Assembly (NCBI GenBank): GCA_963920765.1
Contig: OY987243.1
Location: 10,540,001 to 10,604,000, forward strand
Reading direction: 5' to 3'
DNA length: 64,000 nucleotides
Origin: Ulota crispa
Taxonomy: Eukaryota > Streptophyta > Bryopsida > Orthotrichales > Orthotrichaceae
Numbering within the stretch: the stretch's first letter is position 1; every line of letters starts with the position of its first letter. This document shows positions 21,069 to 60,895 of the stretch, one piece after another. A program made the translations under genes and the position numbers. Below the pieces are notes generated by a model, which was not told the DNA's origin, did not search any database, and saw nothing but the letters and a program-made list of their open reading frames with translations.

Positions 21069-21157
21069 TTAACCCTTAATTGTCACAAGTTTTTAACTAC
21101 TCTGAAAACCCCAACCTCTAGGCTAAGGGCTGGGTGTGATGTCCATTCAAGGGTTAA
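21069..21157. mobile_element. Small TTAA-ended (piggyBac-like) element, 89 bp
   Basis: Ends are TTAACCCTTAATTG and, inverted, TTAACCCTTGAATG. TTAA occurs at both boundaries followed by CCC inside. The short length makes this less certain than the larger copies. Confidence 0.45.
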
Positions 21158-21162
21158 AATAA

Positions 21163-21694
21163 GGGAAAATATCAAAAATGCCCCTCAGTTCTTTTTAATA
21201 TAAAATATACCTTTATGTTATTTGAAATATTAAAAATAAACATTTAGCTTTGTGTAAGAATATCAAATAGACTATATCCCTAATTATTTTTGAGAATATT
21301 ATAAATACTCATAGTTTTCTTATGTCTCTTTATTAAAAAAATTGTAAATATTGGAATGACATGAGAAATTACTATGTAGTCAATGCAATGGTTTTGGTCA
21401 CAACAAACTTACATGCAAAAATCCTATATAGAGATTGAAGAGGTTGCATCCAAGATTTGGCTTGCATTCAACTTGCATCTAGTTTTTGTAGTTTTAATTG
21501 TCATTCTAGTATCTACAAAAAAATGCAACAAGAGACACAAGAGAACTAGGGGTTTATATAATGTTCTCAAAGATGATTAGGGATATAGTCAATTTGATAT
21601 TCTTACACAGAACTAGAAGCATTTGGTATTTCAAATAACATAGGGGTATATTTGATATTTTGAAAGAATTGAGGGGCATTTTTAATATTTTCCC
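21163..21694. mobile_element. Foldback element with GGGAAAATAT ends
   Basis: The left arm starts GGGAAAATATCAAAAATGCC and the right arm ends with the inverse GGCATTTTTAATATTTTCCC. Pairing extends about 140 bp into each side, for example AGAATATCAAATAGACTATA and TATAGTCAATTTGATATTCT. Non-coding centre. Confidence 0.75.
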
Positions 21695-21733
21695 TTAAAA
21701 TAATCCTAACGTGGTGACTTGATATTTTGCCTT

Positions 21734-22047
21734 AGGGCATCTCCATAAGTGGCTTGGGTTTGCTCAAAGTGGATGAATAGTAGCCAAGCCCCTCTCAAAC
21801 CTTCTCAAACTCTCTTATTTGGCAAGTCTAGCAAGCCACTCGTGAAGCCACTATTCATGCACTATTCACCTTAAGTTTAGTGAGCTTTATTCTCTACTTC
21901 CCTAAATAAGTGGTCTATTGCTTATTTATGGGGTGTGTTGGAGTGTAAGGCCACCTTTTCAAAGAGCATGGGTGGAGATTGAGAGCCTTTAGGCCTCACC
22001 AAATTAGATGAAAAACTTTGAGCAAGTCTAGATTGGTGGAGATACCC
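21734..22047. mobile_element. GGGCATCTCCA-ended PIF/Harbinger-like element
   Basis: Ends are AGGGCATCTCCA and TGGAGATACCC. TTA lies immediately left and TAA immediately right, compatible with a 3-bp target site that has one change. About 315 bp, non-coding. Confidence 0.6.
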
Positions 22048-22279
22048 TAAACATAAATGTGGGCTCTAGATGGAAAAGCTCAAATGGCATTCAAAAATTT
22101 AATTTTAGAAATATATCATCAGTATGTTGAACTTGGAAAATTAGAATTCATTTTTGGATTCAAAAAACCTAATTTCAGTAAATTAATTCAAAAATAGGGG
22201 CAGATCTTTACAGTTTTTGACCCTCATTTTTCCCTGCAAGGGGCTTTTTCAAACTCTTTATAATTTGTTACAGAATGAC

Positions 22280-22359
22280 TTAACCCTTTAACAACCAAGC
22301 AACCAAAAAGTGATCAATTCTCAATGTATTTATCATGAATTTGGTAGTTAAAGGGTTAA
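22280..22359. mobile_element. Small TTAA-ended (piggyBac-like) element, 80 bp
   Basis: Starts TTAACCCTTTAACAACCAA and ends with the near inverse TTTGGTAGTTAAAGGGTTAA. The right-hand TTAA (22356-22359) is also the left TTAA of the next element. Related to the 408-bp element at 55643-56050. Confidence 0.7.
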
Positions 22360-23284
22360 CCCCTAAATGCCCAAGGGTGTTTTTCTCGTTTTCAGGAGGT
22401 AGTTTTGGAGTTTTTGAATTGTCTTTGTAAGATCATCATTAAACATCAAAACAAAATTGTAACCATTGAATCTTGAACTTCAAGGTTTCTAGATGGCACT
22501 ACCCAAAAAGAATCCCAAATGGCCCCTCAGATTTTAAAATATTTGTCATTGAATGATGATGAGTATGGAATTTTTTGCTTTTTTTTAGCTGCCCGAAATC
22601 CTAATGCAAATTGGCAACTATTAAATACAAAATTGGGAGACAACCACTTAGGATGCTTTAGTGTTTATTGTTGTTACTTCAAAACCAATTGCCCCTCTTC
22701 CAAATCCATGACCACAATTTCACAAATGAGCTTGCAATGCAACTGTCAAAATGCAACCGTCTAATACAAAGACATTTTCAACTTCAATTATTGACCAAAA
22801 ATCATTATGAATGAAAGAAAATTCAACGGTGAAAGAATCCTAATTTTTATAACAAAGACATTCCAAGTGAAACTAGTCCAAAAGCACTTTTAGATTTTGT
22901 TAGATGTCAAACTTTCAATAAAAAGGCCCTTGTTGCCCAAGGAAGTGCCCAAGGGAAATCTTCACCTTTTGCTCAACTTGATGCCTGTTTTTTCAATGTG
23001 GCAACTTCTCATAGGCTTTGTGACACTATTCACAACACTATTCATGACACTATTCACGACACTATTCACAATAGTAAATATGTGCTTGTAGTTAACCTTC
23101 CACCAATAACAAATGAAATAAGATATGGAGGAAGTTGAATTTGAACAATAAAATTAACTTCAATGCACAACTTTTCCACAAAAAAAACCTCAAATCAATA
23201 AAATTTGTAACTTCAACAGGGTTTCAAAGTTTCCTGAAATTTTTTGGACACTAGAATCTGGTGCCTTGAGCATTTAGGGGTTAA
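22356..23284. mobile_element. TTAA-ended (piggyBac-like) element, subfamily C, copy 1
   Basis: 929 bp. Ends are TTAACCCCTAAATGCCCAAGG and its near inverse CCTTGAGCATTTAGGGGTTAA. An almost identical copy lies inverted at 36609-37538; open frames inside both copies are identical over 64 codons. A short run of CACTATTCA repeats occurs at about 23025-23070. No transposase motif is visible, so it is non-autonomous. Confidence 0.85.
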
Positions 23285-23915
23285 TATGGGTGCTTCCACC
23301 TTTAAAAGAAGGCCATATGGAGTTCAAGAAAATTTGGCTGGTCATGTCCTCATCGGCTCATCCTGTCGTCATCCTTGTCACAAGATCGGCCGCAGCCATA
23401 GAACTTTTCTTTTTGTATTATCCATTCATGGAGCGACACGCACCCTAGAATGCATGCGGGCAAGGAAAATACATGGATATGATCATCCACGTGGGCATGT
23501 GACTTTCATTCACATTTTGGTGCACCTAATGTTTCTTTGAGAGGGATTTGGCAATTTTCATCAGATTCTTACTCCGTTTTTTTTTATTATGGAGATAGCT
23601 GGTGTCAAAATGAAGTGGAATTTTGATAAAAATTGTCCAAATTTTTGTCTTGGTAGAACTATTTGATTGTGCTTGCAATCCCTACAGTTTTATCTGTTGG
23701 GGTTAGTGGGGAACATGAAGTAGAATTACTTGGTCCCATTTTCCTCCTCCACCTGTGTCCGTAGGAGGCAATGATCCCAGATGTGATTATTGTGGTTATA
23801 TGCAATGACTTAAAAACACATCAAAATATGCTAAAATTTAAATTTCACACTTCGATATGCACATTTAGTGTTGCTAGAGTAAAATTGGTGATTTTTCTCT
23901 ATTCAGCCCCCCCTT

Positions 23916-24118
23916 ACTTATGTAATTGAATTGGCAGTGGTGGTGGTTGCACTTGACAGTTTCATAGGCGAGGAGGATAATTTTGCAAAATTCATCTTTA
24001 GTTTCACTTAAAAGTAAAACTTATATAATTGAGTTAGCAATGGTGGTGGTCACACTTGACAGTTTCATAGGTGAGGAGGACGATTCTGCAAAGTTCATTT
24101 TTAGTTTCACTTAAATAT
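23916..24118. repeat. Two-unit tandem duplication, period 103 bp
   Basis: ACTTATGTAATTGAATTGGC at 23916 recurs as ACTTATATAATTGAGTTAGC at 24019. Both are followed by a GTGGTGGT block, GACAGTTTCATAGG and TTTAGTTTCACTTAAA. No function inferred. Confidence 0.75.
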
Positions 24119-24299
24119 AGAGTAAAGTTCAAGTTTAACTAAGCTATAAATGGAATAAAATAAAAGTTGAGGGGCACAAGGATAGCAAGCATAGGAACAG
24201 AGGGGCGTATGGCTAGGGGGCATGGGGATAGGGGGTGATGTGGCACATAGTTGATGCATCACCCTATCAACCCATTGGTACAACAGGTGTCTATATTGA

Positions 24300-24709
24300 T
24301 TTATTAATAGCAAACAATTTATCACATAAATATTATATGATTTGAAGGGCATGAAAATTTTCTTTTTGAAAATGCAATAAAATTTTGATTTGGACACTAC
24401 ATGATTTAGATACTTCACATCATATGTTAGCTAACTTCCAAAAAACTTAGAAGCCTCTCCAAGTCAAGTATAAATAAGGAAATTTTAGTAAAGGGGTCCC
24501 TACTATTGCCGTCCCTTTATTAAAATTTCCTTATTTAGGCTTGTTTTGGAGAGGCTTTTAAGTTTTTTGGAAGTTAGCTAACATATGATGTGATGTATCT
24601 AAATCATGCAATGTCCAAACCAAAATATTATTGCATTTCCAGAATATAAACATTTATGCCCATCAAGTCATATAATTTTATGTGATGATCTATTTTCTAT
24701 TAATAGATC
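24300..24709. mobile_element. Long foldback element, copy 1
   Basis: Arms of about 170 bp pair around a centre near 24495; for example CATATGTTAGCTAACTTCC on the left and its inverse on the right. Related to 53681-54111, which shares TTAGCTAA-TTCCAAAA and GGTTTGGACA. Confidence 0.75.
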
Positions 24710-24777
24710 AACCTTGATATATTGGGACTATTTGCCAAGAGGATTGAGGATGCCCTAATAAAACACTAAAGTAGACA

Positions 24778-24976
24778 TACCCATTCCCTACCATTGAACC
24801 TAATGCCGCTCAAATGTGCACAAGCACACATTTGAATTCTCAAATTAAGCATGTCATAGGTGTCTTATTGTTTGTGCACATAAAATAAGACATCTATGAC
24901 ATGCTTAGATTTGAGAATTCAAATGTACGCTTGTGCACATTTGAGCGGCATTAGGTTCAATGGTCGGGAATGGGTA
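24778..24976. repeat. Near-perfect inverted repeat, arms about 95 bp
   Basis: TACCCATTCCCTACCATTGA at the left is inverted at the right (TCAATGGTCGGGAATGGGTA). Pairing continues through CCTAATGCCGCTCAAATGTG and GAATTCTCAAATT to an apex near 24880. High identity suggests a young foldback insertion. Confidence 0.8.
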
Positions 24977-25107
24977 AGAGTCCCATGGTTCTCTCTAGAC
25001 ACTGAAGGCAACATCCACAGGTCTCCTCCAACTATCCTCTACTATTGTAGACACTTGTAAGACACTAGACACTTGTAAAATAGGCCAAAAAATCTTGGGC
25101 AGGATAT

Positions 25108-26387
25108 GGTAGAAATACCATAAACGGTTCAAATAAGCCACTTTAGCATGTAAGATATGGGATTTTCTTGAGAAATTAAGCTCAATTTGTGGAGAAACAA
25201 AGATAAGGAAGAGTGCAAAAAAAAAAACTCAAAAATGAATATTTTATGCAATATAAATGTGGATTTAGGGTTTGGACCAATTCTAGTTTCATAGGTGCAC
25301 CGTAACCCCTAAAGGACCATTGTCCCTTCAGCTGACATTTGTGATTTCGGGCATGTACGTATGGCTAAACTACTTTGTGTAATTTTTCAAAACTTTTATG
25401 GAAGGTGAGGAATTCATAGATCTACGCAGGAATGTAATTTTTTCTTCATTCCGACATTTATTGAAGAAGTTATGCATGAAAATCTAGAAAAAGCTGCTCC
25501 TCGGGCAGCCAAAAACTTCTTGAAAAATTACATTTTTTTCAAAAAAAAACTTGAAATAGGTTCTTTAGACTTATATAGAAGCGGGGAGCTTTGAATCATT
25601 CAATTTTGATAGATGAGATGAAAGTTATGAGGAGTTTTTGTTTGCGGGTAGTTCTAAATTCTCTACTATGAAATAAACTTTGAAGTCCTTTGTTTTACTT
25701 AATTTTCAATATTTTGGAAAAATAACAAAATCAAAGGATGTAGATTGTTTATTACAACATTATAACCGTTGGGATTTGCATTTCTCATTTTTATAATTAA
25801 CTCTCAACAATTTAGTGTTTTGACTCATTCTCTACTTCTTGTTACTTACTATTTTTTCCTATGTGTTGTATAGTTCTAATTGATTTGAAAATTCTTGTAC
25901 ACATACCTAACTTGGTGTACTACATGGGAAAAATAAAGCTCAACTTTGTATAGAGTAATTTTTTTGCTCTAAGAGTGGTCAAAGCCTTCTAAAATTTTTG
26001 GGCAGCAGCAAAAATGACTTTTTTTAGCAATTTAGATGTAAATAACTCACTCATTTTTGTGTAGATTGAGCTGATTTTTTTACCACGTGTACCTCTTGTA
26101 GTCTACTATAAGATCTTACGATTGAATTCTTGTAAAAACTTTTTTTTCTTACCATTGTACTTGCTTCCCCAAAAGTGGCAATTTTCTATGTTTTTTGCAA
26201 AAAAAATGGCTTGGTCCTTTAGGGGTTAAACGGCTACCTCTAGAACCTTGTTCTAAAACAAGTTTGAATCAATCAAATGCAAGGAAATAGCATCTTTTTG
26301 AACTCTTTTTTAAAACCAACTCTTGTTGATTTTAGAACAGTCTACTTTACCATTATTGGGGGAGTAACCATTTATGGTATTTCTACC
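25108..26387. mobile_element. Outer element with GGTAGAAATACC ends, host of a piggyBac-like insertion
   Basis: GGTAGAAATACCATAAACGG at 25108 is nearly exactly inverted at the right (CCATTTATGGTATTTCTACC, ending 26387). Between them sits the TTAA-ended element at 25302-26229, so the outer ends appear to be the halves of an older element. Confidence 0.55.
25302..26229 (+). mobile_element. TTAA-ended (piggyBac-like) element, subfamily B, copy 1
   Basis: 928 bp. The left end reads GTAACCCCTAAAGGACCATTG (TTAA changed to GTAA) and the right end TTGGTCCTTTAGGGGTTAA. The interior matches B copies at 28131-29067 (inverted) and 29064-29985, and those at 44388-44686 and 58980-59931. Landmarks are GCTTTGAATCATTCAATTTTGA and TTTGAAGTCCTTTG. 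Non-coding. Confidence 0.8.
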
Positions 26388-26390
26388 TTA

Positions 26391-26823
26391 GTGCATCCCC
26401 AATCCAGCTGTAAACAGCCTCTGGAAAGGGGATATACCTCATTTTTTGCAAAAACGGGGCCCCAATGCAGTTGGCTCTGTCACCTAGAAATTCCCGGCCT
26501 TGTTATAGAAGAGCCCCGCCCCTGCATTTTCTGGCTTTTTGGCAAGCCTTGAAGAACACTTTGGGGCCCCAATTTCTGAAATTCTGACATGTTTAAGAGC
26601 CTTAGAATTTGAATTTTTGGATTTGTGACATGTTCCAGCTCTGAGCAACCAATGCAAGCTTGGAAGGAATATATGGAAACACTAGTTTGCAAGAAATAAC
26701 ACTGATCTGCATTGGGGCCATGGAGACTGGCACAAGGCTCGGCCCTCCCCTCCCTTGCCCCGGGGTCAAGCCCGGCCTGACACCATACAGTGATTAAATG
26801 TAGCGGTTTCATTGGGGATGCCC
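26391..26823. mobile_element. PIF/Harbinger-like element with TTA target duplication
   Basis: TTA flanks both sides. The ends are GTGCATCCCCAAT and the inverse ATTGGGGATGCCC. About 433 bp, more GC-rich than its surroundings, with no transposase. It starts 3 bp after the outer GGTAGAAATACC element ends. Confidence 0.7.
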
Positions 26824-27231
26824 TTAGAGAAAAAGGGAAGAAAATTTGCCAACAATTGTCAGAAAAAGAGTGGAGGCAGGCGTGTGTGGATGCCCTGGTT
26901 CCCAACGGGCTCATTATTTGGGGCAGTGACACGCTGTCCTTTCTGACCTGGTGACGTTTCTCCCAGCTTTACTCCGCCCAAGACCAGCTCCCCCTTCCGG
27001 TCCCTCGAACTGTCTAAATTGACACATCCTAATTGATTAAATGGATTTGAATTGATAAAAAATTGTCTGAATTGGCACGTCCTAAATGACCAATTTTTTC
27101 AAATTGACAATGTTCCCTTGTCATGTAATTTTCAGTAATTGTGTGCTCATTCTCCAAATCACGTTCCTAAACAATCATAACTTTATTTAGCAAAGGTGGA
27201 AATTGCTCATGCTAAAATTCTTTAACCCTTT

Positions 27232-28134
27232 AAAGATCACACACATTTTCACAAAATTCATTAAAAATTGAGGTAGTAAGATTGGATGTGCGGTTGAATC
27301 AAATATGGACCCAATTTTAGTAATCCAACCGTACAAATAAGAAGTAGACCTTGTTTACTATAAAGCACCAAAATCCCAATTAGATCTACCGTTGGAGGTG
27401 AAATATTATAATGATTGAGTGAGTTGTAAGCGGGAATTCTCTAGTTTTCATATTTGTGTGGTTTTGGATCTAACTACTTCATACAAGCTTTGCTTGAGAA
27501 GAGCCTTATATTTCTAGAAAGCTGAGTTTCCCACCTTTCCAATAAGACTGCTTTCACACAAAATGGATAAAAACAGCAATCACAAGGTGTAGCTAAGTGG
27601 AAAAAATGGTTCAAAGATCTCACTTTCTTTGCTACCCAAAAACAATTTTACAAGAAATTTGATAAATGCTATGCAAAATCCAATTGGTGAAAACAACAAA
27701 AAATTGGCCTTAAATGTAGGACAACAAATTTTTAATATGAAATGATAGCACCATTTCAATAGATCTTCAAATATTACAATTATACTACTACCATATAGAG
27801 AAACAATACAAGCGTGTTTCTTGAGGAATTTGAAATTTTTTAGGACTGCACAATTAAAATTTGACATTCTTCTTGGATGTTTGATGTATTGTGTTGTTGC
27901 TTTGATCCATCTTTGACCAAATATGGATACAAATTTTGAGGCCATGCCGTATAAACATCATTATTTAGCAACTCACACACCTGATTTCATTGTATTTTAT
28001 TTTGTTGGATGCAAAATTCTTGTGAGCACAAGCGTTCTTCAAGACCAGTTTCCAAATTGTTGAGCGATTTTACTCTATAAGCCAAAACCACTCTCCTAAA
28101 CCAAAATATGGTCTGGTGGTCTCTAAAGGGTTAA
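27232..28134 (-). mobile_element. TTAA-ended (piggyBac-like) element, subfamily A, copy 1
   Basis: 903 bp. Left end TTAACCCTTTAAAGATCACAC, right end GGTGGTCTCTAAAGGGTTAA. It is nearly identical, in inverted orientation, to 29982-30863; the 121-codon open frames inside (27580-27945 here) are the same residue for residue. The other copy lacks about 21 bp near the outer end. That frame has no transposase motif and AT-biased codons, so I treat it as part of the element and not as a gene. Confidence 0.85.
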
Positions 28135-29067
28135 CCCCTAGAGGACTGAGCCATTTTTTCTTGTGAAAATCACTCAAAACTGCCACTTTTGGAAGGGTTA
28201 GTAAGAAGAGTTTTTTTTTGAAAACTTGGGAAATCCAACCGTAGGATCTTGCCCTAGATTGGATTAGGTACTTGCGGAAAAGAAATCAGGTCATTCTGGA
28301 TGGACATGAGTGAGATATTTACATCTAAAGTTAAAAGAAAAGTTTTTTTTCATGCTGCCGCAAAATTTCAGAAGCCTTTGACCATTCTTACATGAAAATA
28401 ATTGCTCTATGCAACTTTGTGCTTTATTTTTCTCATGTAGGAGATCAAGTTAGCTATATGTGGGAGAATTTTCAAATCAATTGGAATTACACAAGACATA
28501 GGAAAAATTAGTAAGTAAAAAGAAGTAGAGAATGAGTCAAATCACTAAATTGTTAAAAATTTAATTATGAAAATGAAAAATGCAAATCCCAACGGTCATA
28601 ATGTTGTGATAAACAATCTACATTCTTTAAAATTTTTTTTTTTCCCAAATAATAAAAATTGAGTAAAATAAAAGACTTCAAAGTTTATTTTGGAGTAGAT
28701 ATTCCATAACTGCCCGCAAACAAAAACTCCGCATAACTTTCATGTCATTGATTGAAATTGAATGATTCAAAGCTTCTCACCTATAAAAGAAATCTAAAGA
28801 ACCAATTTCAAAATTTAATTCAAAAAAAAAAAAATTAAAGAAGTTTTTGGGCTGCCCGGGCGGGCAGTCCTCCCTTGCTTTTCAGATTTTCATGCATAAC
28901 TTCTTCAATAATTGTCGGAATGAGGAAAAATTTAGATGCCCGCATAGATCTTTTAATTCCCCACCTTCAATAAAAGTTTCAAAAAATGACACAAAGTAGC
29001 TTATCCAAAGGTACATGCCCGAACTCCCACCTGTCCCCCGAAGGGACAATAGTCCTTTAGGGGTTAA
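28131..29067 (-). mobile_element. TTAA-ended (piggyBac-like) element, subfamily B, copy 2 (inverted)
   Basis: 937 bp. It starts TTAACCCCTAGAGGACTGAGC and ends GTCCTTTAGGGGTTAA. The interior is the reverse of copy B1 (25302-26229), for example TCAAAGCTTCTC and ACTTCAAAGTTTATTTTGGAG. It shares its left TTAA with element A1 and its right TTAA with B3. Confidence 0.85.
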
Positions 29068-29985
29068 CCCCTAAAGGACTAGACCCCCTTTTTTAGAAAC
29101 ATAGCAATTTTGAGCAGGTACCTGTGATTGGAGCTTTTTGTATTTTAGGCTGAAATTTTAATGGAATGTGGGGACAAGGTTTATCTTTCATATGCACTAA
29201 ATTTCATGACATTTGGAATTATGAGAAAAAATTATGGCCTAGTATGTTGTTTTTTACGTTTGGCGGATAGCTTGGGCAGATTTTTAAAAATCATTTTTTT
29301 CAAAAACAAATTTTTATTAATGATTTAGGAGATTTATGTGAATGTAGGAAGCTTTGAATCATTCCGTTTGGATCAACGAGATGAAAGTTGTGAGGATTTT
29401 TTGTTTGCGGGCAATTATGGATTCTCTACTCCAAAATAAACTTTGAAGTCCTTTATTTTACTCAATTTTCAAAATTTTGGGAAAAAAACAAAATCAATGG
29501 ATGAACATTGTTTATGAAAACATTATAACCATTGGGATTGGCATTTTTCATTTTCATAATTAAATTCTTAAAAATTTAGTGTTTTGATTCATTCTCTACT
29601 TCTTTTTACTTACTAGTTTTTTTCCATATGTTATACAACTCCAAATGATTGGAAATTTTTTTGACATGTACTTTACTTAGGTGGAATAAGGAATTTGGAG
29701 AAGCACCACCCATATAACCTTTTTTCCTTAGGAATTTCACTTTTTGAAGGGTAGCTGCCCAATTTTTCACAAGACATTTTTGAATATTCAAACCATTCTA
29801 ACTTCCAATTGAAGTGGTGGAAAACTTTGAAATTTGTTTCCACATTTTTTGAAACCATTCTTCCACAAGATCCTACGGTCACATATGCATAAAAATGTTT
29901 TTGTTTACAAATTTGGTTGATGTTCTAAAAATGGTAGTTTTGAAGAGTTTTTGGTGAAAACTTTGCTTGATCCTTTAGGAGTTAA
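29064..29985 (+). mobile_element. TTAA-ended (piggyBac-like) element, subfamily B, copy 3
   Basis: 922 bp. Starts TTAACCCCTAAAGGACTAGAC and ends GATCCTTTAGGAGTTAA. The middle third matches B1 in the same orientation (GCTTTGAATCATTCC, TTTGCGGGCAATTATGG), while the outer parts have diverged. Shares its boundary TTAAs with both neighbours. Confidence 0.8.
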
Positions 29986-30863
29986 CCCTTTAGAGACCAC
30001 CAAACCATATTTTGGTTTAGGAGAGTGGTTTTGGCTTATAGAGTAAAATCGCTCAACAATTTGGAAACTGGTCTTGAAGAACGCTTGTGCTCACAAGAAT
30101 TTTGCATCCAACAAAATAAAATACAATGAAATCAGGTGTGTGAGTTGCTAAATAATGATGTTTATACGGCATGGCCTCAAAATTTGTATCCATATTTGGT
30201 CAAAGATGGATCAAAGCAACAACACAATACATCAAACATCCAAGAAGAATGTCAAATTTTAATTGTGCAGTCCTAAAAAATTTCAAATTCCTCAAGAAAC
30301 ACGCTTGTATTGTTTCTCTATATGGTAGTAGTATAATTGTAATATTTGAAGATCTATTGAAATGGTGCTATCATTTCATATTAAAAATTTGTTGTCCTAC
30401 ATTTAAGGCCAATTTTTTGTTGTTTTCACCAATTGGATTTTGCATAGCATTTATCAAATTTCTTGTAAAATTGTTTTTGGGTAGCAAAGAAAGTGAGATC
30501 TTTGAACCATTTTTTCCACTTAGCTACACCTTGTGATTGCTGTTTTTATCCATTTTGTGTGAAAGCAGTCTTATTGGAAAGGTGGGAAACTCAGCTTTCT
30601 AGAAATATAAGGCTCTTCTCAAGCAAAGCTTGTATGAAGTAGTTAGATCCAAAACCACACAAATATGAAAACTAGAGAATTCCCGCTTACAACTCACTCA
30701 ATCATTATAATATTTCACCTCCAACGGTAGATCTAATTGGGATTTTGGTGCTTTATAGTAAACAAGGTCTACTTCTTATTTGTACGGTTGGATTACTGGA
30801 ATTGGGTCCATATTTGATTCAACCGCACATCTGTGAAAATGTGTGTGGTCTTTAAAGGGTTAA
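29982..30863 (+). mobile_element. TTAA-ended (piggyBac-like) element, subfamily A, copy 2
   Basis: 882 bp. Starts TTAACCCTTTAGAGACCACC and ends TGTGGTCTTTAAAGGGTTAA. It is the inverted near-duplicate of 27232-28134 and completes the mirror-image block centred on 29064-29067. Confidence 0.85.
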
Positions 30864-31755
30864 CCATCTTCAACCTTCGAAGCCTTCATGTGCAATTTCA
30901 TGTCATTTTCCACTGTTGAGGAGGTCCTCTCACGTGTAATGTTTGTCGGAGTCTTCTAAAATTTGGACTAGACATGTGATTGGCTGCTAAGTTGATGATT
31001 AGCGAATTTCATGTATTTATTTGCCATGGTTCTAAAGCTATGCATGGACATCTTTTTTTAAATTATAAATGAGGGGCAATTCCACAAGACATGATAGATA
31101 GGTACAATTGGTTTAAAAAATATTCACACACACTCTCCACACACTTATGCAATATAGCATATGAAGTACAACTGTTGCCTCATCAATGATTTGTGAGCCA
31201 GTGAGGACTTCTAAATTCAAATATGAATTTAAAATTCCCAAATTCAATCTCTTGATGCCTCTTAGGGCACTATCAACTCATACACAGGGTTTGGGACTAG
31301 GAATTGGTTGTCCATGTGTAGCTCCTTGTGCACATAGTTTTGCAGGTCGTTACATCAAATGGATTGTCCTAACCGTGACGCAATTCCCATTACAAATTTA
31401 GGTACAAGAGAAGACACTTACAAGCACTTGCTAGTTGTTGCTAAGAAGTTGCGAATTATTGCAAGCAATATGTCATTCAAACAACAAACGCGGTGGAAGT
31501 CCTAGGGCACTGGGAAACGAGCAAATATGTCGTTCAAGGAGGTCATTTTGACAAGCCATCTCCTAATTACGTGTGGCCATGATTGCCTTAGAGCCTTAAA
31601 GATACCTCATTCTCCCTCAAAATTGACCCCACCAGAAGAAAAGGAGTTACAATTCCATTCCCTTCCCTAACTTGGATTGATGATGCTCTTACATTTTCTA
31701 GCAAGTGGAAAAACTAAGATTTTCCACCCTGGCCTCACAAAACGGCATGCCATCA
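30864..31755. other. Intergenic, upstream of the F-box gene
   Basis: AT-rich to mixed sequence with no coding signature or strong repeat. Confidence 0.4.
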
Positions 31756-32078
31756 GGGCATCATCAATACAACACTAGGTATTTGGCAGGGCCTGGGACT
31801 GCAAAAACACTGCAAATTTTGAAAATTTGGAGTGCCACTATCTAATTATTCTTTATTAGGCATGATTTGCCGTGTTGTTTGTCCTTTAGTTATTTTTTCA
31901 ATGGACGTTAGTTAGTTTGTCCAATTTCCAATACCATATGTCAGTTTATCTATTTGACGAGTTTTTGTATACGCTTTCAATGATATTAATCTCATTTTCT
32001 AATTATACACTAGTCAAAAATAACAGTGTTTTTGCACCCAGGCCCCGCCAAATACCCAGTGCTGTATTGATGATGCCC
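31756..32078. mobile_element. GGGCATCATC-ended element with TCA flanks
   Basis: GGGCATCATCAATACAACAC at the left and its inverse (GTGCTGTATTGATGATGCCC) at the right. The pairing runs about 50 bp and includes GGTATTTGGC and GCCAAATACC. TCA flanks both sides, fitting a 3-bp target duplication. 323 bp, non-coding. Confidence 0.75.
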
Positions 32079-32704
32079 TCAAGCCTCAGCCGTCAAATGA
32101 TGAAAGAAAGCACTTCAGTGACTTATTTGAGCCTAAAATATGCCCAAGAAAAAGTTCCCGAGGTTGATGAACTCAATCACCCTCCTGCCCGGAGAAATTG
32201 GGAGTGCATGGATTCTCATTCACCATGTGAGGACATTTCGAGTGTTCAGTGCGGCATCACTCGACCTGTTCCACTTCCACCCCAGTCACGAAGAATCTTG
32301 GATTCCAAAAACATCGGAGATTCCTGGTCATTGTTCCGTTTGCACTCGATCTTCCGATAAAAAATTTCTAGCTCCGTTTGTTACCTTGGCTGGTGAGTTC
32401 ACGAGGCTCACGAGGTGTCGTCCAAGTTCCAAGGATTCAATCTCTGGAAATTCGTGCTACACAGATTCTCTCGTGACGAATTAAGCTCTCATCTTTCGTG
32501 TTCAGCTTTTTAGGGTTTTTGTTTCTCTGGTGCGACGCTTTGCAGGCGAAGCGTCGGGAACCTCTTGGCAGGAGGAGTGTGTGATCGCTTCTTCGGAGAT
32601 CTCGCAAGGTGTGAGTTGATTGCAAGGGTAACTGGCTATGTCGGGTGGTGGTTGTTCGAGCACGCCATCGCGCAGGCGTCATGGCCACGTCGTTGCTCGT
32701 CTCT

Positions 32705-32845: not shown

Positions 32846-32894
32846 GAGTGCTCTACACGATTATTGTGAGTCGTCCTGGAGTGGCGGTAGAGGG

Positions 32895-35271: not shown

Positions 35272-35319
35272 AACCCCCCTTGTGTAACAAATCCACGTCA
35301 TTGTTTCTCATTTTGTATA

Positions 35320-36608: not shown

Positions 36609-37538
36609 TTAACCCCTAAATGCCCAAGGCAACAGATTCTAGTGTCCAAAAAATTTCAGGAAACTTTGAAACTCTGTTGAAGTTACAAATTTTATTGATT
36701 TGAGGTTTTTTTTGTGGGAAAGTTGTGCATTGAAGTTAATTTTATTGTTCAAATTCAACTTCCTCCATATCTTATTTCATTTGTTTTTGGTGGAAGGTTA
36801 ACTACAAGCACATATTTACTATTGTGAATAGTGTCGTGAATAGTGTCATGAATAGTGTTGTGAATAGTGTCACAAAGCCTATGAGAAGTTGCCACATTGA
36901 AAAAACAGGCATCAAGTTGAGCAAAAGGTGAAGATTTCCCTTGGGCACTTCCTTGGGCAACAAGGGCCTTTTTATTGAAAGTTTGACATCTAACAAAATC
37001 TAAAAGTGCTTTTGGACTAGTTTCACTTGGAATGTCTTTGTTATAAAAATTAGGATTCTTTCACCGTTGAATTTTCTTTCATTCATAATGATTTTTGGTC
37101 AATAATTGAAGTTGAAAATGTCTTTGTATTAGACGGTTGCATTTTGACAGTTGCATTGCAAGCTCATTTGTGAAATTGTGGTCATGGATTTGGAAGAGGG
37201 GCAATTGGTTTTGAAGTAACAACAATAAACACTAAAGCATCCTAAGTGGTTGTCTCCCAATTTTGTATTTAATAGTTGCCAATTTGCATTAGGATTTCGG
37301 GCAGCTAAAAAAAAAGCAAAAAATTCCATACTCATCATCATTCAATGACAAATATTTTAAAATCTGAGGGGCCATTTGGGATTCTTTTTGGGTAGTGCCA
37401 TCTAGAAACCTTGAAGTTCAAGATTCAATGGCTACAATTTTGTTTTGATGTTTAATGATGATCTTACAAAGACAATTCAAAAACTCCAAAACTACCTTCT
37501 GAAAACAAGAAAAACACCCTTGAGCATTTAGGGGCTAA
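36609..37538. mobile_element. TTAA-ended (piggyBac-like) element, subfamily C, copy 2 (inverted)
   Basis: 930 bp. It starts TTAACCCCTAAATGCCCAAGG and ends CCTTGAGCATTTAGGGGCTAA, with the final TTAA changed to CTAA. Nearly identical to 22356-23284 in opposite orientation. Confidence 0.85.
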
Positions 37539-38188: not shown

Positions 38189-39138
38189 TTAATCCCTAAA
38201 GGACCAAGTGGCTGTTCAACAGCCACTTGAGAACTCAAGTAGGGTCATATGAAGTCAATTTTGATTGGATGTTCTCAAAATTGTTACACAAGGTGCAATT
38301 ATGTATCTTGTAAGTGGAAATGTAATTTTTCCCCAATCAAATGCTCGGTTCAAAAATTATGTTATCCAAAAGCATTTGGGCAGCTTGGGCATCTTTGGAG
38401 AATCATGTGCTAAAACTCTCATCAACTTTGGAAATTTGGGAAGTTTTTAACTAAAAAAATGTAATGTACAATTGTCAAAAAAAAAAAAAAAAAAACTCCC
38501 ACATCATATTTAGAAGGAGTCAAACTTTGTTAACTATGTTTGAGTAGTTTCAAGAAGAAAAACAAATCATTTAACTTCATGCCCTCTTATCTTTAAATCT
38601 ATAAATCCAAAATCTTGAAACTTTTTTTTACATATTCCAAATGAGTATCTCTAACTTTTCACCGTTTGGATTTCAAATAAAAGACTTCCTCACTGCACAA
38701 GAAATCATGAAAGAACAACTACTGAATTGCCAGTTCACTAAACCTCCTTGCACTGCAAGGTGATTTAAAATAAGCTAGATTCTATCTTTGCATCTGAAAA
38801 TTTTCTTGAGTGAACCTAACATCACATACTTGTGAATGGTCAAAAAGATCAAATTTGAGTAGAGCAAAAAATTTACTCTAGGAAGGGTCAAAGTTTGCTG
38901 ACCTTGTTTTGCAAGAATGAAAAAAAGCTATTTTTCTTACTCCAAACGTTATGATCTTAAAATTTGCACGGTCAAATGGGCTGAAATTTTTTGCACATAT
39001 TATCTTATCTATTTGACACACTTTTGTGCAGTTGGAATTGAGAAAAAGGTTTTTAATTTCAATTTTGGACAATGCACTAAAAGTTGGCAATTTCTGAGAT
39101 TTTTTCTCAAAAAACACCCTTGGTCCTTCAAGGGTTAA
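38189..39138. mobile_element. TTAA-ended (piggyBac-like) element with CCCTAAAGGACCAAG ends
   Basis: 950 bp. The left end is TTAATCCCTAAAGGACCAAG and the right end CTTGGTCCTTCAAGGGTTAA. The interior is unlike subfamilies A-C apart from the ends, so this is a further subfamily. A 9-copy tandem array begins exactly at its right edge. Confidence 0.75.
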
Positions 39139-53472: not shown

Positions 53473-53566
53473 CTTCAATAATGTTCAACACTCATTTGCT
53501 TTGGAGACTATTGGAAGTTTTTCTTTTATTTTGCATTTTCTAGTGCATTCTATAAGTTTATAGGGA

Positions 53567-53572
53567 AATAAA
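53567..53572 (+). terminator. Candidate polyadenylation signal of SRX
   Basis: AATAAA lies 95 bp after the SRX stop codon, in a T-rich context, at a distance typical of plant 3' untranslated regions. Confidence 0.45.
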
Positions 53573-53680
53573 GGGAAAGAAGGAAAGAAAGTTGATGTTG
53601 AAATTTTGATGAAAGGATGCATAATATTATTTTGCTTGTATTGTCAACTTGTAAAGTTTCAAGCACATGTATATCATGTA

Positions 53681-54111
53681 GGGGAAATTACGAATAGGGG
53701 CAGGAAAACGTAAAATATTACAAATTGGGGCGTAGTTTCAAAATAATTACAAATAGGGGCATGATTTTTTAAAAAATTGTATTTTTTTGTAAATTTTTTT
53801 TGGTTTGGACATTGGTTGATTTAGGCACAGCATATTAATGTTAGCTAATTTTCAAAATAATTAAAGGTCTCTCCAAATTGAGCCTAAATAAAGAAATTGT
53901 AAAGGGGATGGCAATTTTGAAGACTATTAAATTTTTTGGAAGTTAATTAACATTTAATGTGATGTGTCTAAATTAACCAATGTCCAAACCAAAAACAAAT
54001 TACAAAGAACTACAATATTTTTTGAAATTGTGCCCTTATTTGTAATTATTTTGAAACTACACCCGTATTTGTAATATTTTACGTTTTCCTACCCCTATTT
54101 GTAATTTCCCC
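53681..54111. mobile_element. Long foldback element with GGGGAAATTAC ends
   Basis: Terminal arms of about 80 bp are almost identical inverted copies, beginning GGGGAAATTACGAATAGGGG and ending CCCCTATTTGTAATTTCCCC. The inner part (TTAGCTAATTTTCAAAA, GGTTTGGACATTGG) relates it to 24300-24709. Only about 0.2 kb beyond the SRX stop codon. Confidence 0.85.
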
Positions 54112-54171
54112 ATATATGTATATATGCATATATGTATACATGTGTATATGTATATATGTGTATATGTATAT
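54112..54171. repeat. TATG/TATA microsatellite
   Basis: About 60 bp of alternating TATA, TATG and TGTA units between two foldback elements. Confidence 0.8.
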
Positions 54172-54584
54172 GGGAATTGATATGTGTACCACGCACCCTT
54201 TCAATTATTGTACCACACCTCCAAAGTAAATTATAAATTTCTACCATCAGAAAGTTGAATTTGAGAATTTGGAATTCAGATTTGGACTTAGAGACCCATG
54301 ATTTAGTCTAGAACCACACAAAAAAGTTGCAATTGAACAGTACTCAATGAAAAAGCTTAGCTAGAGGAAAAGTGTTACTTTTAGGTTTGTTTGTAAAAAA
54401 AGAAAAGCTTTTTCATTAGGTGTTGTTCAATTGCAACATTTTTCAAGGTTCTAAACTAAATCATGGTCTCTTAGTCCAAATTTGAATTCAAAATTCTCAG
54501 CTTCAACTTCTAGATGGTAGAACTCTATAATTTACCTCCCAGGGGTGTGCAAATATCAACTCCAGTGTGCACATATCAATTCCC
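54172..54584. mobile_element. Long foldback element with GGGAATTGATA ends, copy 4
   Basis: Left GGGAATTGATATGTGTACCAC, right GTGCACATATCAATTCCC. The inner arms match 7163-7572 (AATGAAAAAGCTTAGCT and its inverse; TTTGGACTTAGAGACC). Confidence 0.8.
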
Positions 54585-55642
54585 TTTTATAATTATAATT
54601 GTTTTCATTAATTGAAGGGCACAACAGCAATGATATGGTTAATTGGGTGTTCAAACAGGTTTCCAAAAACCAGGTGTATGTTTCAAAAATTTATGGTAAT
54701 GTAAAAAGGCATGGTATTTAAAATAGTATGTTTTGAGATTATTAATTGAAGGGAATGCCCTCATCAAGTTGTATCTTTTTATACATTGTAAACACTTATA
54801 ATGGTTTGAAGCCATGTAGATAGAGATATTCAATTGCCTCTCTAACCACCTAGTCGGATCCTTTGCTAATCCTTAAAGCAATTTTTTAAGAAACAACTTG
54901 TATTTCAATCCCCATGCCTTTTTGCTCTACCATGGAAAAAATTTATAAGCATTATGTTAGAACCAGACAACCTCTTTTGCATGCTAGCTTATTTGTTATC
55001 CATTTGATAAACTACGCACAACTTACATAAACTTCGATGTTCATTGTTTTTACAAATGTTTAACTTGTTATTAGATAAATTGCAAGGATTTTCTTTTATG
55101 TACTAAATATTGGACTTGAAATTGTACTATGTGTTGACAATCACTACAAGAAGGCAAAGTATTAAGTGAAGTATAACACATCTACATGTTCACAAACACC
55201 GTCACATGACATATAAAAGTTAAAAACTTACAAGTGACATTTCTGCAAGTTCAAGAATCGGGCAAGTTGTGACTAATATAAAGTGCACTATGGCTTATGA
55301 AAAAATATGTAATAATCAAATCATCCATTGATATAAACAATGAAAAAAATTGCACTTGAACAACAAATTGTATTGTTTGTATATGGTTAAACTTGGTCAA
55401 TTTCACTATATTCAAGTGTGATATATTTACAAAGACAATGTCATAGTGCTACACAAATCATTACAAGTTAAAAAAGTCTCACACTTAATTATGGATTATC
55501 CAAAGTCCACAAATGATACTCCAAAGATTTTTTTGATTTGCAAAATATTGAAAGATACTTTCAAAACATTGAGAGGCATTGTCCAAAATAAAAAAAACAT
55601 ACAAAACTTTGAAGAAAATATACTCAAAATATCTAAAATTCT
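54585..55642. other. AT-rich intergenic stretch
   Basis: No gene, clear repeat or motif seen. Confidence 0.45.
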
Positions 55643-56050
55643 TTAACCCTTTGACAACCATGGTCGGTTATGGGGTGGGCAATCCTTTGTATGGCCATTT
55701 GGGGGAAATTTTAAAACTATTGAATATAGAAGTCTACCATAGATCTAACCATATAGATGGAAGTATCTTGCAGGGTTTAGTGTTATGCATCATGAATTAT
55801 GCTCACTCTTTAGTTGGTATGGCCATCTTTTTGCATTCATTGGTGTATTTTCAGCCGATATTCTTTTAGATTTTTTCAACCTGTTGGCCACATGCCACCT
55901 CAAATTGGCATGGTTATTGTCCTAAACTCTTCACTTCCCAATTCCCCAAACACGTCCCCTTTGGCTAATCACCATTAACATTCTCTTCTTACACATGGAA
56001 AAGGGGCGGAATTGACCACAAAGTGGTCTACTAGTCGTTAAAGGGATAAT
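55643..56050. mobile_element. TTAA-ended (piggyBac-like) element, 408 bp
   Basis: The left end is TTAACCCTTTGACAACCATGG. The right end is CTAGTCGTTAAAGGGATAA, where the terminal TTAA has become ATAA. Its ends resemble the 80-bp element at 22280-22359. Confidence 0.6.
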
Positions 56051-57866
56051 ACTTGGGAGCATAAAAAGTTCATTATTACATGAATAGCTCATAATTAGTT
56101 AAATATGTCATAAGGTGAACTTGGGTTTAGGGTAATCCTCTCACAATTCATTAAAAGTTGGAGTGATTATTTCATTTGAAGATGAAATGTGCACAATTTT
56201 AAAGTTAGAAAACGCCTTTTAGCTTGCACATCTGAACATGACCAAGTTATTAAGAACAATATGAAGGCCCTATATTTGCTTTATACTTTATATGTTAGTT
56301 CAATACTTATTTTTTTTTGAGAATAAAGATAACATTCATGAAAATCATATAACATATGAAAATGTCACTTAATGATGTTCTTGTAAGTTCAAGAAAGGTT
56401 GGACACAATTTTATAACTAACTTAGAGTGCAACATGACTATAAAAAGGCAAATTGACTTTGATTTATCCATTAAAATAAACATTTAACAATTTTGCATGT
56501 ATAGAACCACATCCACTCTCTCCTTGGTCAAATTAAACTACTCCTTGAAAGCATAATTGTTTTGTTTTTAGATTTTTCCAAACATGATATTTATGTAGTC
56601 TCCAATACGAGCTCAAGTATTGTATCCCTTAAATTATTTTTAAAATTTATTTGAACTCTGCACAAAAAAAACCCAAAATTTATCTTTCGCGCTTGATTTT
56701 AAGCTCAAATTGTAGCACAAAGTTATTGTGCACTTGAAAATTAATCAAGGCTGCTTTGGTGTTTATTTTTATAAAAAACATATATATTACTGTTAAACCG
56801 TTTCATATAGGCCTTGTTTAAGTGGATTAATCATTAATGCAATATCTGTCTAAATCTGGACTTTATGTAATTTATATTCTTTTGATTTTTCATTCAGTTC
56901 TAAGTTGTGCAAAATACTGGGAGACCTTTTAATGTTATTTTGAAAACCAAAACATCTTTGATATATAAGTAAAACACAAAAAACCTTCCTGTGTTTTTGC
57001 ATATATCTACAAATAAAATAAATAAAAATCAAACTCTTATTTCTAAATGTTGGATTGTTCATATCTAGTTAAATATGGTATAACAATTGGTTTTATAAAT
57101 AATGCACTTGGTATGCTAGAGCAATAGAGTGTTTTGAGTTATGAGCAAGGTTTGAGGAGAACCAGCATACAACATATTCATTATCAACTGAAACTGCAAA
57201 AGAATTGGTTGAAACTTGAAACTACCCAAAAACTAGCCAGATTTTCCAAGAAAATCAATTTATTATGTACTAAAGTACAACAATACCAAATATATAGTGT
57301 GTCTGTGCCGATAAGAAAACTGGGTGAAACTGGGAAATGCACAATTTTAACATGTGAAACTAAAATTGCTCTCCAAACACCAATCAAGAGTTTAGGAATC
57401 CTAAACCGTACAAACAACTGACAGCTAAAACAAGATTAAAAATAAAACAAAAAAATCCGAACAAATCAACAAATGAATTTGATATAAACAAAAACCGAGA
57501 CAAAAACCCAACTCTATACTCGGAGTGCACTTGAACTCATTCAACAAAGATTTCAAAGGGATTGGTTTTGAAATGAAAAAATTCATTGGCAGTGAAAAGA
57601 GGTTGATAATTTTAATGATTGGCCACCCTTCAAAATGGTAATTACCATTGCGAGTTTTTTTCTCGTAACACATTTTTGAAACATAAACCTGAATTTTGTG
57701 CAAAATATTCTCTATATCTTATTATATGAACTCACCAACCCACCAAACCAGAAAATCTCAAACTCAGATAATATTGACAAAATTTTTGTGAGAGTACAAT
57801 AAACGTGGAAATGACTGACAAAATATGTTTCGTGAGCAATTTCCACTGTCTAGTAAAGACAACAAG
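56051..57866. other. AT-rich intergenic stretch
   Basis: No supported gene. An open frame at 57134-57421 shows no domain and no splice context. Confidence 0.4.
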
Positions 57867-58099
57867 TTAATTATCCTTGAAAACAATATGGAGAAAAAGA
57901 AAATAAAAGAAAAAACAGAAAAAACAGGACACACAACTCAAAAACATTAGATGTAGTTTTAAGTAAAAATAGTAACAAAAGTAAGCAAACGAAAAGCAAA
58001 AGAGCCCTATATAATTTGTTAGAAGTATTGGGGCATCTAAAAAGCTTGAATTGCACAGTGGGGTGTACAAAAGCTTCTTTCTAAGAATTGCTCCTTTTT

Positions 58100-58217
58100 G
58101 CTGATTACAAACACTGAGAAAGTGTTTATCATGTTCAATGATCTCATGGCGACAAGTTAAGCAATTAGGGAGCATTTTTCTCTTAGCAAGCTTGGCCTTG
58201 CCCATATGAGGTATCAT
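58100..58217 (-). pseudogene. Possible LINE reverse-transcriptase zinc-knuckle relic
   Basis: A minus-strand frame starting at 58217 reads KRKMLPNCLTCRHEIIEH followed by DKHFLSVCNQQK. The spacing C-X2-C...E-X3-H-X4-C matches the zinc-binding motif found at the end of plant LINE reverse transcriptases (zf-RVT). The rest of the frame decays into a Phe/Cys-rich run. No reverse-transcriptase catalytic motif is nearby, so it would be only a fragment. Confidence 0.3.
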
Positions 58218-58563
58218 TGTTTCTACTAATCTTTAAATCATCAATGATGAGAAGTTGACAACATGCAAGAATATGGTACTTTTTGCATGACAACATCAAA
58301 GCTGGAGATTTTGCATACATTTGATAGATGGTATATTGATTCTAGAATGCATGTGTCATTAGCACAAAGACTAAAAACATTAGTCTTTTGCAATGAAGCT
58401 CTTTGGACGTTTTTAGAAGGATAAAAGGGAGTAATTATTAAATTGGATTTACTTACAAATATAGATAGAAGTTGCAATTAGTATTTTATAATTCTAGTTT
58501 TTGATATACTTATTAGAGTTATCCTTGTATTTAGACCTTCTTTGGTATCTACTATCACCTTAT

Positions 58564-58564
<1 letters not shown>

Positions 58565-58607
<43 letters not shown>
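58565..58607. repeat. 43-bp poly-T run
   Basis: An uninterrupted T tract on the + strand. It could be the poly-A tail of a minus-strand retroposed sequence (the LINE-like relic lies on the minus strand nearby) or simple slippage. On the minus strand it precedes the relic, the wrong side for its tail. Confidence 0.9.
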
Positions 58608-58608
<1 letters not shown>

Positions 58609-58825
58609 GAATTGAAAGGAAGTTTAAAAAAATTCCATAGTGAAATTGAAAAGGGGTGTCAAGTCTATGTTGTCACCAGCCCACTAATAAGGTAGCAACA
58701 CCCATAACTGTCAAATTAAGGGTTTTGAACATGATGATACTAGCCCACTAATATGACCTTTGTAACTTGGGATCCAAACTCAACTTTTCACCACTTTTTA
58801 TGGTAGTTTGCATTTAATCCAACCT

Positions 58826-58914
58826 TTAGCCCATTAATGCCCGATCGACCAAAATATGGTCAATTTCTCATGTATTTCTAGACCTCCAGGCGTTAATGAG
58901 TTAAAATTTAACCT
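58826..58914. mobile_element. Small TTAA-type element, 89 bp, decayed
   Basis: Starts TTAGCCCATTAATGCCC and ends with the near inverse GGCGTTAATGAGTTAA. Length and ends resemble the other small TTAA elements, with one end mutated. Confidence 0.4.
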
Positions 58915-58979
58915 AAACAAAGTTTTACTCTTGAAAATCCATCGTTTCATTTTTTGAAATAGAGGTTATAGTGTCCAAG

Positions 58980-59931
58980 TTATCCTCTAAAGGCCCAAGT
59001 GTTCCCTCATGGGACAAATGGACCTTGGGCATGTACCTATGACTAAAGCAATTTTTAAAACTTTTTTGAAACTTTTGAGGATGGTGGGGAATTCAAAGTT
59101 GTGCGTGCACATCTAATTTTTCTTCATTCCAACATATATTGAAGAAGTAATGCATGAATTTCTGAACAACAAGGGAGGGCGGGCAGTTTGGGCAGCCCAA
59201 AAAACTTCTTTAAAAATTGCATTTTCTTCAAACAAAAACCTAAAATTGGTTCTTTAGATTTTTATACATGTGGGAAGCTTTGAATAATTCAATTTTGATT
59301 GATGAGTGAGAAGTTTTAGTTTGCTGGTAGGTATTGGACTCCAAACCCTCCATTCCTTATTTCCCTTGTAAAATTTGGTGCTTTAATTTTTTGTTTGACT
59401 TTTTTTTTCCGAAGTTGTGGTAGACTAAGATTCCTTAGTCTTCACCATTTGGATCAAAGTAATTCAAATTTTTGAATTTTACATAAACCCTCCAATTTTG
59501 CCTAGTGTATATGCAAATTTCATGGCCTCACGGCATTGCAAGATATTACAAAGTATGATTCACACCTCCAATTCATTTAAAAATCCTCCCACACTTACCT
59601 AACTTGATCTCCTACATGGAAAAAATAAACCTCAACTTTGCATAAATTTTTTTTTTTTGATAAAGAAGAGGTCAAATGACTTTTGAAATTTATGGGCAGC
59701 AAGGACAAAATCTTTGTTTTGCACTTCAAATGTCAATATCTCACTCCCCTACATTTAGAACAAGCTGATTTTTTTTTTTTTTGTGCAAATACCTCTCATA
59801 GTCTAGAATAGGATCCTACGGTTGGATTTCCAAAAAAATACTTTTTCCCCTACCTTTCTACTCATTCCCCCAAAAGTGGCAGTTTTAAGTGACTTTCACA
59901 AAACAAAACAGCTTGGGCCTTTGGGGGTTAT
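58980..59931 (+). mobile_element. Subfamily B (piggyBac-like) element, decayed full-length copy
   Basis: 952 bp. Left TTATCCTCTAAAGGCCCAAG, right CTTGGGCCTTTGGGGGTTAT; the original TTAA appears as TTAT at both sides. The interior follows B1 in the same orientation: GGGCATGTACCTATGACTAA, TGAAGAAGTAATGCATGAA, GAAGCTTTGAATAATTCAATTTTGA. Confidence 0.75.
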
Positions 59932-60671
59932 GGGTACTTTTAGGATAAATCTATTAATTTAATTTAGTATTTTTTTTTGAAGTTTAAATGGATGTGACCC
60001 CAGAACGTTTTTTTTTTAAATGTTCATGCTTGGTACATGAAAGATTCCAATATGTAGTCCAGTGTTGGAGGAGAACATCAGATTTGGAAGTTTGAGCGCA
60101 CCGCAATTTGCTGACGAGGAGCCAATAAACCACAAGGCTTTGATTCCTTCAGAGTCATGCAGGGCACTTGAGATCTTTGCTTTATGGCGCAAACCAATAC
60201 AAACACTAGAATGTGGATAAAGGCAGCCCAACTTGCACACTTGCATGCAGCAACTCTCTCTCAACTTTTCTCCACTTTTCTAGATAATTCTGAGATTTTA
60301 CGGAAAGGTATCTTTGACCACTTCTCCCCCCATTAGATTCTTACAATCAGTTCAAGGATCTAAAATACGTCTCAAGGTCCTAAAACTTCAAAGTACAAAA
60401 TAAATAAAAGTGTAGTTATGGACTAATTAAATTTATTAGATTTTTTTTTGTTAAATTTAACCTCATTTCGTAGCTCTTGGATTTACTTTTTGTTGGTTAA
60501 TTAGATAATGAAGACGTAGTGCATTGTTCTTCAATGCAACGCATTTTTTTTTTTCTGTAAGATTTTTCCTTGGCTCTTGAGCTAGTGGAGGAACATAAGA
60601 ACGTTTTATCTATCAGAACTGAAAAATAAGCCTTTCGTATAGTCCAAAATGATGGCCATAAAATCATGCCC

Positions 60672-60895
60672 TTAACCCCTAAACGTCAGGTGATATGTTG
60701 CCGTATATCTGGCATTTGCCACCAACAAGAAATTTTAACTTGGGATCTCAAATAGCTCACTAAAACCACATTTATTTATATTCCAACCTTTTTGTTGATC
60801 ACAAATGTAATAGAGGGGTAGATTCATTCCAAATACAAAAAAAATACCTCATATTGTACTGGTTGCAAATGGTCTTTCTAACGTTTAAGGGTTAA
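60672..60895. mobile_element. TTAA-ended (piggyBac-like) small element, intact
   Basis: 224 bp. Starts TTAACCCCTAAACGTCAG and ends CTAACGTTTAAGGGTTAA. A truncated relative lies at 7573-7763, sharing most of the interior. Non-coding. Confidence 0.75.

Follow-up and report, generated by a model that had tools for sequence, protein, structure and literature searches.

Miniature elements very probably of the piggyBac superfamily, and their long relatives, in a plant genome

Introduction

Can the piggyBac transposons reside in a plant genome and give rise there to miniature elements? The question is raised by a 64-kb stretch of contig OY987243.1 (assembly GCA_963920765.1, positions 10,540,001 to 10,604,000), hereafter the window, in which short elements with TTAACCC and GGGTTAA ends follow one another. 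piggyBac is known mainly from animals. A sequence-only reading of the window had nevertheless assigned these elements to piggyBac and had concluded that a transposase source should exist in the genome. After computational follow-up we are highly confident that the window elements are non-autonomous piggyBac members, that is, miniature inverted-repeat transposable elements (MITEs), and that the CCCCTAAAGGACC family and the element at 55643 (elements are named by their first window position) arose by internal deletion from long piggyBac elements of this genome. This conclusion was drawn because the TTAA target, the shared ends, a transposase domain enclosed by such ends and the homology of MITE outer parts to long elements were all observed.

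Results

Paired ends in the window and across the genome

By setting element bounds from symmetric ends, 13 bounded elements with a total of about 9.1 kb (shared TTAA counted once) and one truncated end were delimited (Table 1). Their lengths fall into the three size clusters noted before, namely 80-89, 224-407 and 882-952 bp. The earlier count of at least a dozen elements was borne out, but the exact TTAACCC and GGGTTAA were present on both sides in only 7 of the 13. End letters were altered in the other 6, as age would produce. The starts of 25302, 38189 (TTAATCC) and 58980, whose ends are both altered, do not literally read TTAACCC as had been stated; the terminal TTAA reads CTAA at the end of 36609 and ATAA at the end of 55643, while TTAACTCC is the reverse complement of the altered right end of 29064. 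Decayed copies aside, a CCC start was found in each window subfamily. One start had been misplaced at 27232 instead of 27222, and for the truncated element previously put at 7573 a lone right end was located and no left end was found.

The chance level was estimated from 100 Markov-shuffled windows, counting TTAACC..GGTTAA pairs 60-1000 bp apart whose terminal inverted repeats (TIRs) matched at 9 or more of 12 places. The window contained 6 such pairs, compared with a shuffled mean of 0.09 and a maximum of 2; among the seven exact elements only 21069 failed the TIR match despite its exact outer ends. The paired ends in the window are therefore far beyond chance. Weaker evidence came from the single words TTAACCC (10 against a shuffled mean of 4.2, maximum 11) and GGGTTAA (14 against 4.5, maximum 10). 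Fuzzy 17-mer ends numbered 53 in the window and 20-40 across 5 shuffles.

The proposed assembly-wide search for the ends was then performed on 274.8 Mb in 157 contigs. The 17-mer TTAACCCCTAAAGGACC was found at 8154 places (4072 + 4082), while its reversed control gave 0. DNA searches with four window elements yielded 1973 (22356), 2417 (27222), 2710 (60672) and 663 (55643) first-look candidates, which are unconfirmed as copies, and 40 for each query were scored. These showed 83-93% identity over the full or near-full length when the queries and two same-window partners were excluded, with secondary matches of 74-82% next to some of them. Within the 40 scored, most relatives of 22356 were full length with 89-99% identity, and those of 55643 reached 84-89%, each element itself excluded.

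Target site

Element 25302 is nested within another high-copy repeat, which enabled a direct comparison of filled and empty sites for this one insertion. All 13 examined empty copies of the repeat (12 read from junction matches plus one in locus L003) have just one TTAA in the place occupied in the window by GTAA, the element and TTAA. With the joined flanks as the query, the junction is spanned at 40 places with 86-92% identity and at one with 79%; one short match fails to span it. For a nested piggyBac element in one of the long copies described below, a relative likewise offers an aligned empty site with one copy of the target (CTAA), in a stretch that is poorly conserved.

Because the target is palindromic, TTAA and TA cannot be distinguished from empty sites alone. 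A Tc1/mariner-like element of the form ACCC..GGGT in a TA target, with the outer T and A present by chance or preference (T-TA-A), would produce filled and empty sites identical to these. The two are separated by the outer T, which is retained in 8154 of 8479 ends genome-wide (96%), far above the level of a free flank. Moreover, the transposase enclosed by the long elements is that of piggyBac, and we consider the probability of a Tc1/mariner-like origin to be close to negligible. Hence, on one insertion and the end statistics, the target is TTAA, duplicated on insertion.

Long piggyBac elements as a source

The piggyBac transposase domain PF13843 gave at least 120 matches genome-wide (best E value 1.3e-73; 116 of 528 first-look candidates scored) and none in 14 control genomes. 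None of the scored matches falls inside the window; as far as shown, the window thus holds non-autonomous copies only. Four long elements with a PF13843 match (E values 5.7e-63 to 1.6e-60) bear paired TTAACCCCTAAAGGACC-type ends. Their left ends are alike over 275-356 bp, extending inward past the MITE part, so these ends belong to the long elements themselves. The copy on contig C6 harbours a second, nested piggyBac element of 6208 bp with ends TTAACCCTTGAGCGC.

The outer parts of window MITEs could be traced to these elements. Positions 2-181 of 25302 correspond to the left ends (87% in the C5 copy) and positions 579-928 to the right ends (82% in the C8 copy). Overall, 25302, 28131 and 58980 align with the long elements over 141-219 bp on the left and 347-552 bp on the right at 70-87%. 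As the three MITEs equal the outer parts of long elements, they are internal-deletion derivatives of them. In addition, sequence like 25302/58980 was present near the edge of 4 of 30 examined transposase loci (L025, L026, L034, L038), and locus L036 showed a 70-base match to 55643.

Of L070, L071 and L072, three loci examined for their long open frames, only L071 was bounded on both sides. Its left end TTAACCCATTAAGGATC matches the right end of 55643, while its right end (TTGA)CCCTTTAAGGACC matches the left end of 55643. The matches span 210 and 156 MITE bases with scores of 159 and 96, whereas none of 60 control stretches scored above the maximum of 44. Since both ends are matched, 55643 looks like an internal-deletion derivative of an L071-type element. 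A copy of another lineage lies on C3; 16 places agree between its two 21-base ends, and its relative L018 resembles it no further than the right end. The earlier expectation of a transposase source was supported for TTAACCCCTAAAGGACC-type ends. For the CCCTTTAAAGACC theme it held in part, for 55643 through L071 but not for 27222/29982, which has no two-sided source.

Kolobok elements likewise duplicate TTAA and could on that ground be proposed for the whole set. In an excerpt of PMC9587614, however, their termini are given as 5'-RR..YY-3', whereas CCC..GGG was found here, and the transposase enclosed by the bounded long elements is PF13843. On the termini and the enclosed transposase, we judge Kolobok highly improbable. 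A more limited alternative is that Sola3, whose target is TTAA, or another superfamily with that target supplies some subfamilies, for example 27222/29982, for which no two-sided transposase element was found. Against it, the subfamilies agree in their CCC start, in TTAA and in size class, the CCCTTT element 55643 is tied to the piggyBac element L071, and a CCCTTTAGCGACC right end is present at L072, a locus with a piggyBac transposase. The match of L071 to the ends of 55643 lowered the already small weight that we gave to this alternative, and on these grounds it now appears very unlikely. By inference, the remaining window subfamilies are ascribed to the same piggyBac origin.

Transposase reading frames

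A stop-free frame of 389 amino acids at locus L019 matched, at E values of 0.01 or below, only piggyBat (2.6e-24) and piggyBac (7.6e-20) in the PDB. Its aspartate motifs (V/I)DE, DN and GVDxxDQ, which we take to be the catalytic residues, align with those of piggyBat. All three motifs are present in the C5 and C6 long elements; the exceptions are C9, where the third reads GVDVASQ, C8, where the third motif alone was found, and L072, which reads GVNVGDQ. Downstream of the catalytic domain, a cysteine-rich motif CVVC..CPSCG..C.C..C was read by eye in C9m and in parts in C8p and C5p, as in the C-terminal domain of piggyBac transposases. About 4 kb upstream of the catalytic domain in C8 and C9, and about 1.3 kb upstream of it in L011, lies a separate reading frame that contains a DGLPVRRN-like motif; it may represent a first exon.

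As a separate observation, a CATA tetranucleotide array of several hundred bases lies downstream of the L011 transposase. Fold-back (self-inverted) repeats of about 400 bp also occur in several copies inside or near long piggyBac elements.

Points that weigh against the piggyBac assignment

Several results count against the assignment or its completeness. No two-sided transposase element was found for 27222/29982 (family A), 22356/36609 (family B), 38189 or 60672, and L072 has its right end without a left one. The four long copies contain 2-6 stops within the matched domain, the stop-free frame of L019 lies in an element whose ends are not bounded, and L071, whose domain is stop-free but in two pieces, shows decay of its right TTAA. 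Beyond the chosen left end of the C8 element, at a distance of 80 bp, there is another exact end, probably that of a neighbouring element. Only 1 of nine window insertions gave empty sites with its joined flanks. As to the ends, the CCCTTTA group begins with CCCT, whereas the main family begins with CCCCT, one letter off the CCYT rule as worded in an excerpt of PMC10175614. Finally, the elements of about 8 kb are longer than the piggyBac elements of bees, given as 2.23-3.52 kb in PMC10140906.

Near-identical neighbouring copies

Two window MITEs have near-identical inverted partners. Elements 27222-28134 and 29982-30863 share 99.5% identity, against a maximum of 91.0% for the other copies compared; the two differ by substitutions at 16, 96, 97 and 892 and by 31 bases absent at 33-63, and 794 bases are identical. 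For 22356-23284 and 36609-37538 the identity is 98.9% (no more than 93.2% for others compared), with 9 of 10 substitutions within the outer 110 bases of either end and 644 bases free of substitutions (one single-base indel). A third pair, C8:656259 and C8:680459 (L075/L076), shows 99.6% identity, its differences being confined to 7 and 877-886; the surrounding 3-kb stretches are alike only within the element. Similarly, the flanks of 22356/36609 do not match each other, and those of 27222/29982 are alike only at the related MITEs 28131 and 29064 (84.7% over 268 bases).

Clean runs this long recurred 6, 3 and 1 times per 20,000 permutations weighted by the column variability of distant pairs, and 18, 0 and 103 times in unweighted permutations on separate alignments; as the three pairs were chosen after their high identity was seen, these figures are descriptive. 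Distant pairs lacked such an end bias, with differences of 0.077-0.106 at the ends and 0.085-0.089 in the core. The identical cores and differing ends suggest local gene conversion. Recent local transposition would also yield close pairs, but its differences are expected to be evenly spread, unlike those of the three pairs, and gene conversion of the cores fits best. Two observations count against conversion: the copies C9:10699140/10738272, separated by 39 kb, are 95.2% identical with scattered differences, and the abutting pair C5:20204345/20205255 is only 81.2% alike. A sample of 13 elements on C1 hardly tests the idea, its pairs less than 25 kb apart, besides the one at C1 described next, being 78.4% and 68.5% alike and of different subfamilies.

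An inverted pair at C1:906911/913795 (100%) was discarded as a case of conversion, since 2934 bp including the flanks are identical, which indicates an inverted duplication or an assembly feature.

Host and arrangement

The earlier description of a plant-type genome was confirmed. TTTAGGG arrays were present at 4 of 6 chromosome ends examined (one reads N and one has no array), and 56 chlorophyll a/b-binding protein matches were found. For the light-harvesting protein at L043, the first PDB match was the multi-domain chain 9vfj_2, and the best single-protein matches were 8htu_U and 7xqp_a, whose source entries are Physcomitrium patens according to excerpts of PMC10005731 and PMC12589708. From the telomeres, and from the light-harvesting protein being nearest to Physcomitrium among single-protein PDB chains, the host is a land plant, probably a moss. 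The scored PF13843 matches are spread over contigs C1 to C11, a number that would be compatible with a moss of 11 chromosomes. Seven light-harvesting (PF00504) gene matches lie within about 110 kb at C4:21391382-21499621.

A chain of four abutting elements (27222-30863, sharing TTAA) was considered as a special arrangement and set aside. Genome-wide, GGG directly precedes TTAACCCCTAAAGGACC at 415 of 8154 ends (5.1%), while intact element ends make up about 17 of 413 TTAA sites in the window (about 4%); as these shares are not far apart, random TTAA use may explain such chains. The window also contains, at 6240-7040, an Exo_endo_phos-type reading frame (E value 0.00082, below the Pfam cut-off), possibly a remnant of a long interspersed nuclear element (LINE) endonuclease.

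Table 1. Coordinates of the elements and other features (window positions unless a contig or locus is named).
Feature	Position	Strand	Length	Remarks
Truncated element, right end only	7747..7763	.		GGGTTAA; reverse complement TTAACCCCTAAATG..; left end not found
Element, TTAACCC..GGGTTAA	21069..21157	.	89 bp	inner TIR match weak
Element, ends CCCTTTAACAACC	22280..22359	.	80 bp	right TTAA common to next element
MITE, family B, left end CCCCTAAATGCCC	22356..23284	+	929 bp	relatives found genome-wide
MITE, CCCCTAAAGGACC family	25302..26229	+	928 bp	left TTAA decayed to GTAA
MITE, family A, ends CCCTTTAAAGATC and CCCTTTAGAGACC	27222..28134	+	913 bp	
MITE, CCCCTAAAGGACC family	28131..29067	-	937 bp	
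MITE, left end CCCCTAAAGGACT	29064..29985	.	922 bp	
MITE, family A	29982..30863	-	882 bp	near-identical inverted partner of 27222, without 31 bp
MITE, family B	36609..37538	-	930 bp	near-identical inverted partner of 22356
MITE	38189..39138	.	950 bp	81-85% relatives in L002-L004 and L007
MITE, left end CCCTTTGACAACC	55643..56049	+	407 bp	both ends match L071 piggyBac transposase element
MITE, CCCCTAAAGGACC family	58980..59931	+	952 bp	both TTAA decayed
MITE, left end CCCCTAAACGTCA	60672..60895	+	224 bp	relatives found genome-wide
Long piggyBac element	C8:11097229-11105483		8255 bp	17-bp ends 17/17 both sides
Long piggyBac element	C5:24506226-24515054		8829 bp	ends 17/17 and 16/17
Long piggyBac element	C9		8530 bp	ends 17/17 and 15/17
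Long piggyBac element	C6		14,662 bp	ends 17/17 both sides
Transposase element in L071	C8:19568194-19573849		5656 bp	bounded both sides; right TTAA decayed
Copy of a further lineage	C3:13130262-13135288		5027 bp	ends TTAACCCCTCATCGCC and TTAACCCTTCATTGCC
Fold-back repeats	L039 2169-2546 and 3626-4039; L040 1774-2186 and 3234-3649			also L041, L042
Inverted duplication, MITE and flanks	L102 C1:905900-908900; L103 C1:912800-915800			palindrome arm or assembly feature

Discussion

By analogy with known piggyBac systems, the DDD transposase of full-length elements would bind the CCC-starting ends and excise the element, the donor TTAA would be re-sealed, and the excised element would be joined into another TTAA. 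Such cut-and-paste movement with seamless TTAA repair is what we infer here, and the MITEs would be mobilised in trans. As a wider picture, we lean only somewhat towards piggyBac ranking among the leading DNA transposons of this probable moss, where several resident lineages of 5-9 kb gave rise to MITEs in the thousands, and where some neighbours (within about 25 kb, inverted or direct) were homogenised by gene conversion so that cores became identical while ends kept older differences. Pairs with identical cores would allow local gene conversion to be measured in a plant.

The sequence-only reading had described piggyBac as generally considered rare or missing in land plants. This is only partly right: in the repeat table of the C-fern, 1230 PiggyBac copies amount to 0.00% (excerpt of PMC6890710), passages of a bee study (PMC10140906) name plants among the hosts, and those of a MITE review (PMC10004981) list PiggyBac among angiosperm MITE superfamilies. 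No report of an abundant or major piggyBac family in mosses or other bryophytes was found in titles and abstract beginnings, with most subscription journals outside the search and longer result lists covered in part; one moss paper (PMC10619864) was set aside, as its matched word was 'piggybacking'. The new part is modest: the superfamily is known, and what stands out is its unusual abundance in a lineage on which the literature search found no report. Still, with ends in the thousands and transposase-domain matches exceeding 100, this one plant genome opens plant-resident piggyBac and its control to direct study.

Like the Stowaway and Tourist MITEs of plants, the elements described here are high-copy miniature DNA elements. 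Stowaway elements have TA as the target and depend on transposases other than that of piggyBac. Tourist elements likewise have other transposases, and their target is TAA/TTA in the excerpt of PMC10004981, in contrast to TTAA here. The CMITE of Acropora corals, as presented in part of PMC2872659, is closer in that its MITEs are tied to piggyBac-like transposons and its copies occur in arrays; compared with that account, the plant host and the direct derivation of the main-family outer parts from long elements of the same genome are particular to the present case. With piggyBac (PDB 6x67) and piggyBat (PDB 9c0f) the elements have in common the TTAA target, the CCC/GGG ends, the DDE_Tnp_1_7 domain and the aspartate and C-terminal cysteine motifs, whereas the transposase elements of 5.0-8.8 kb, some with a separate upstream frame, the plant host, the thousands of derivatives and the CCCCT start of the main family are their own.

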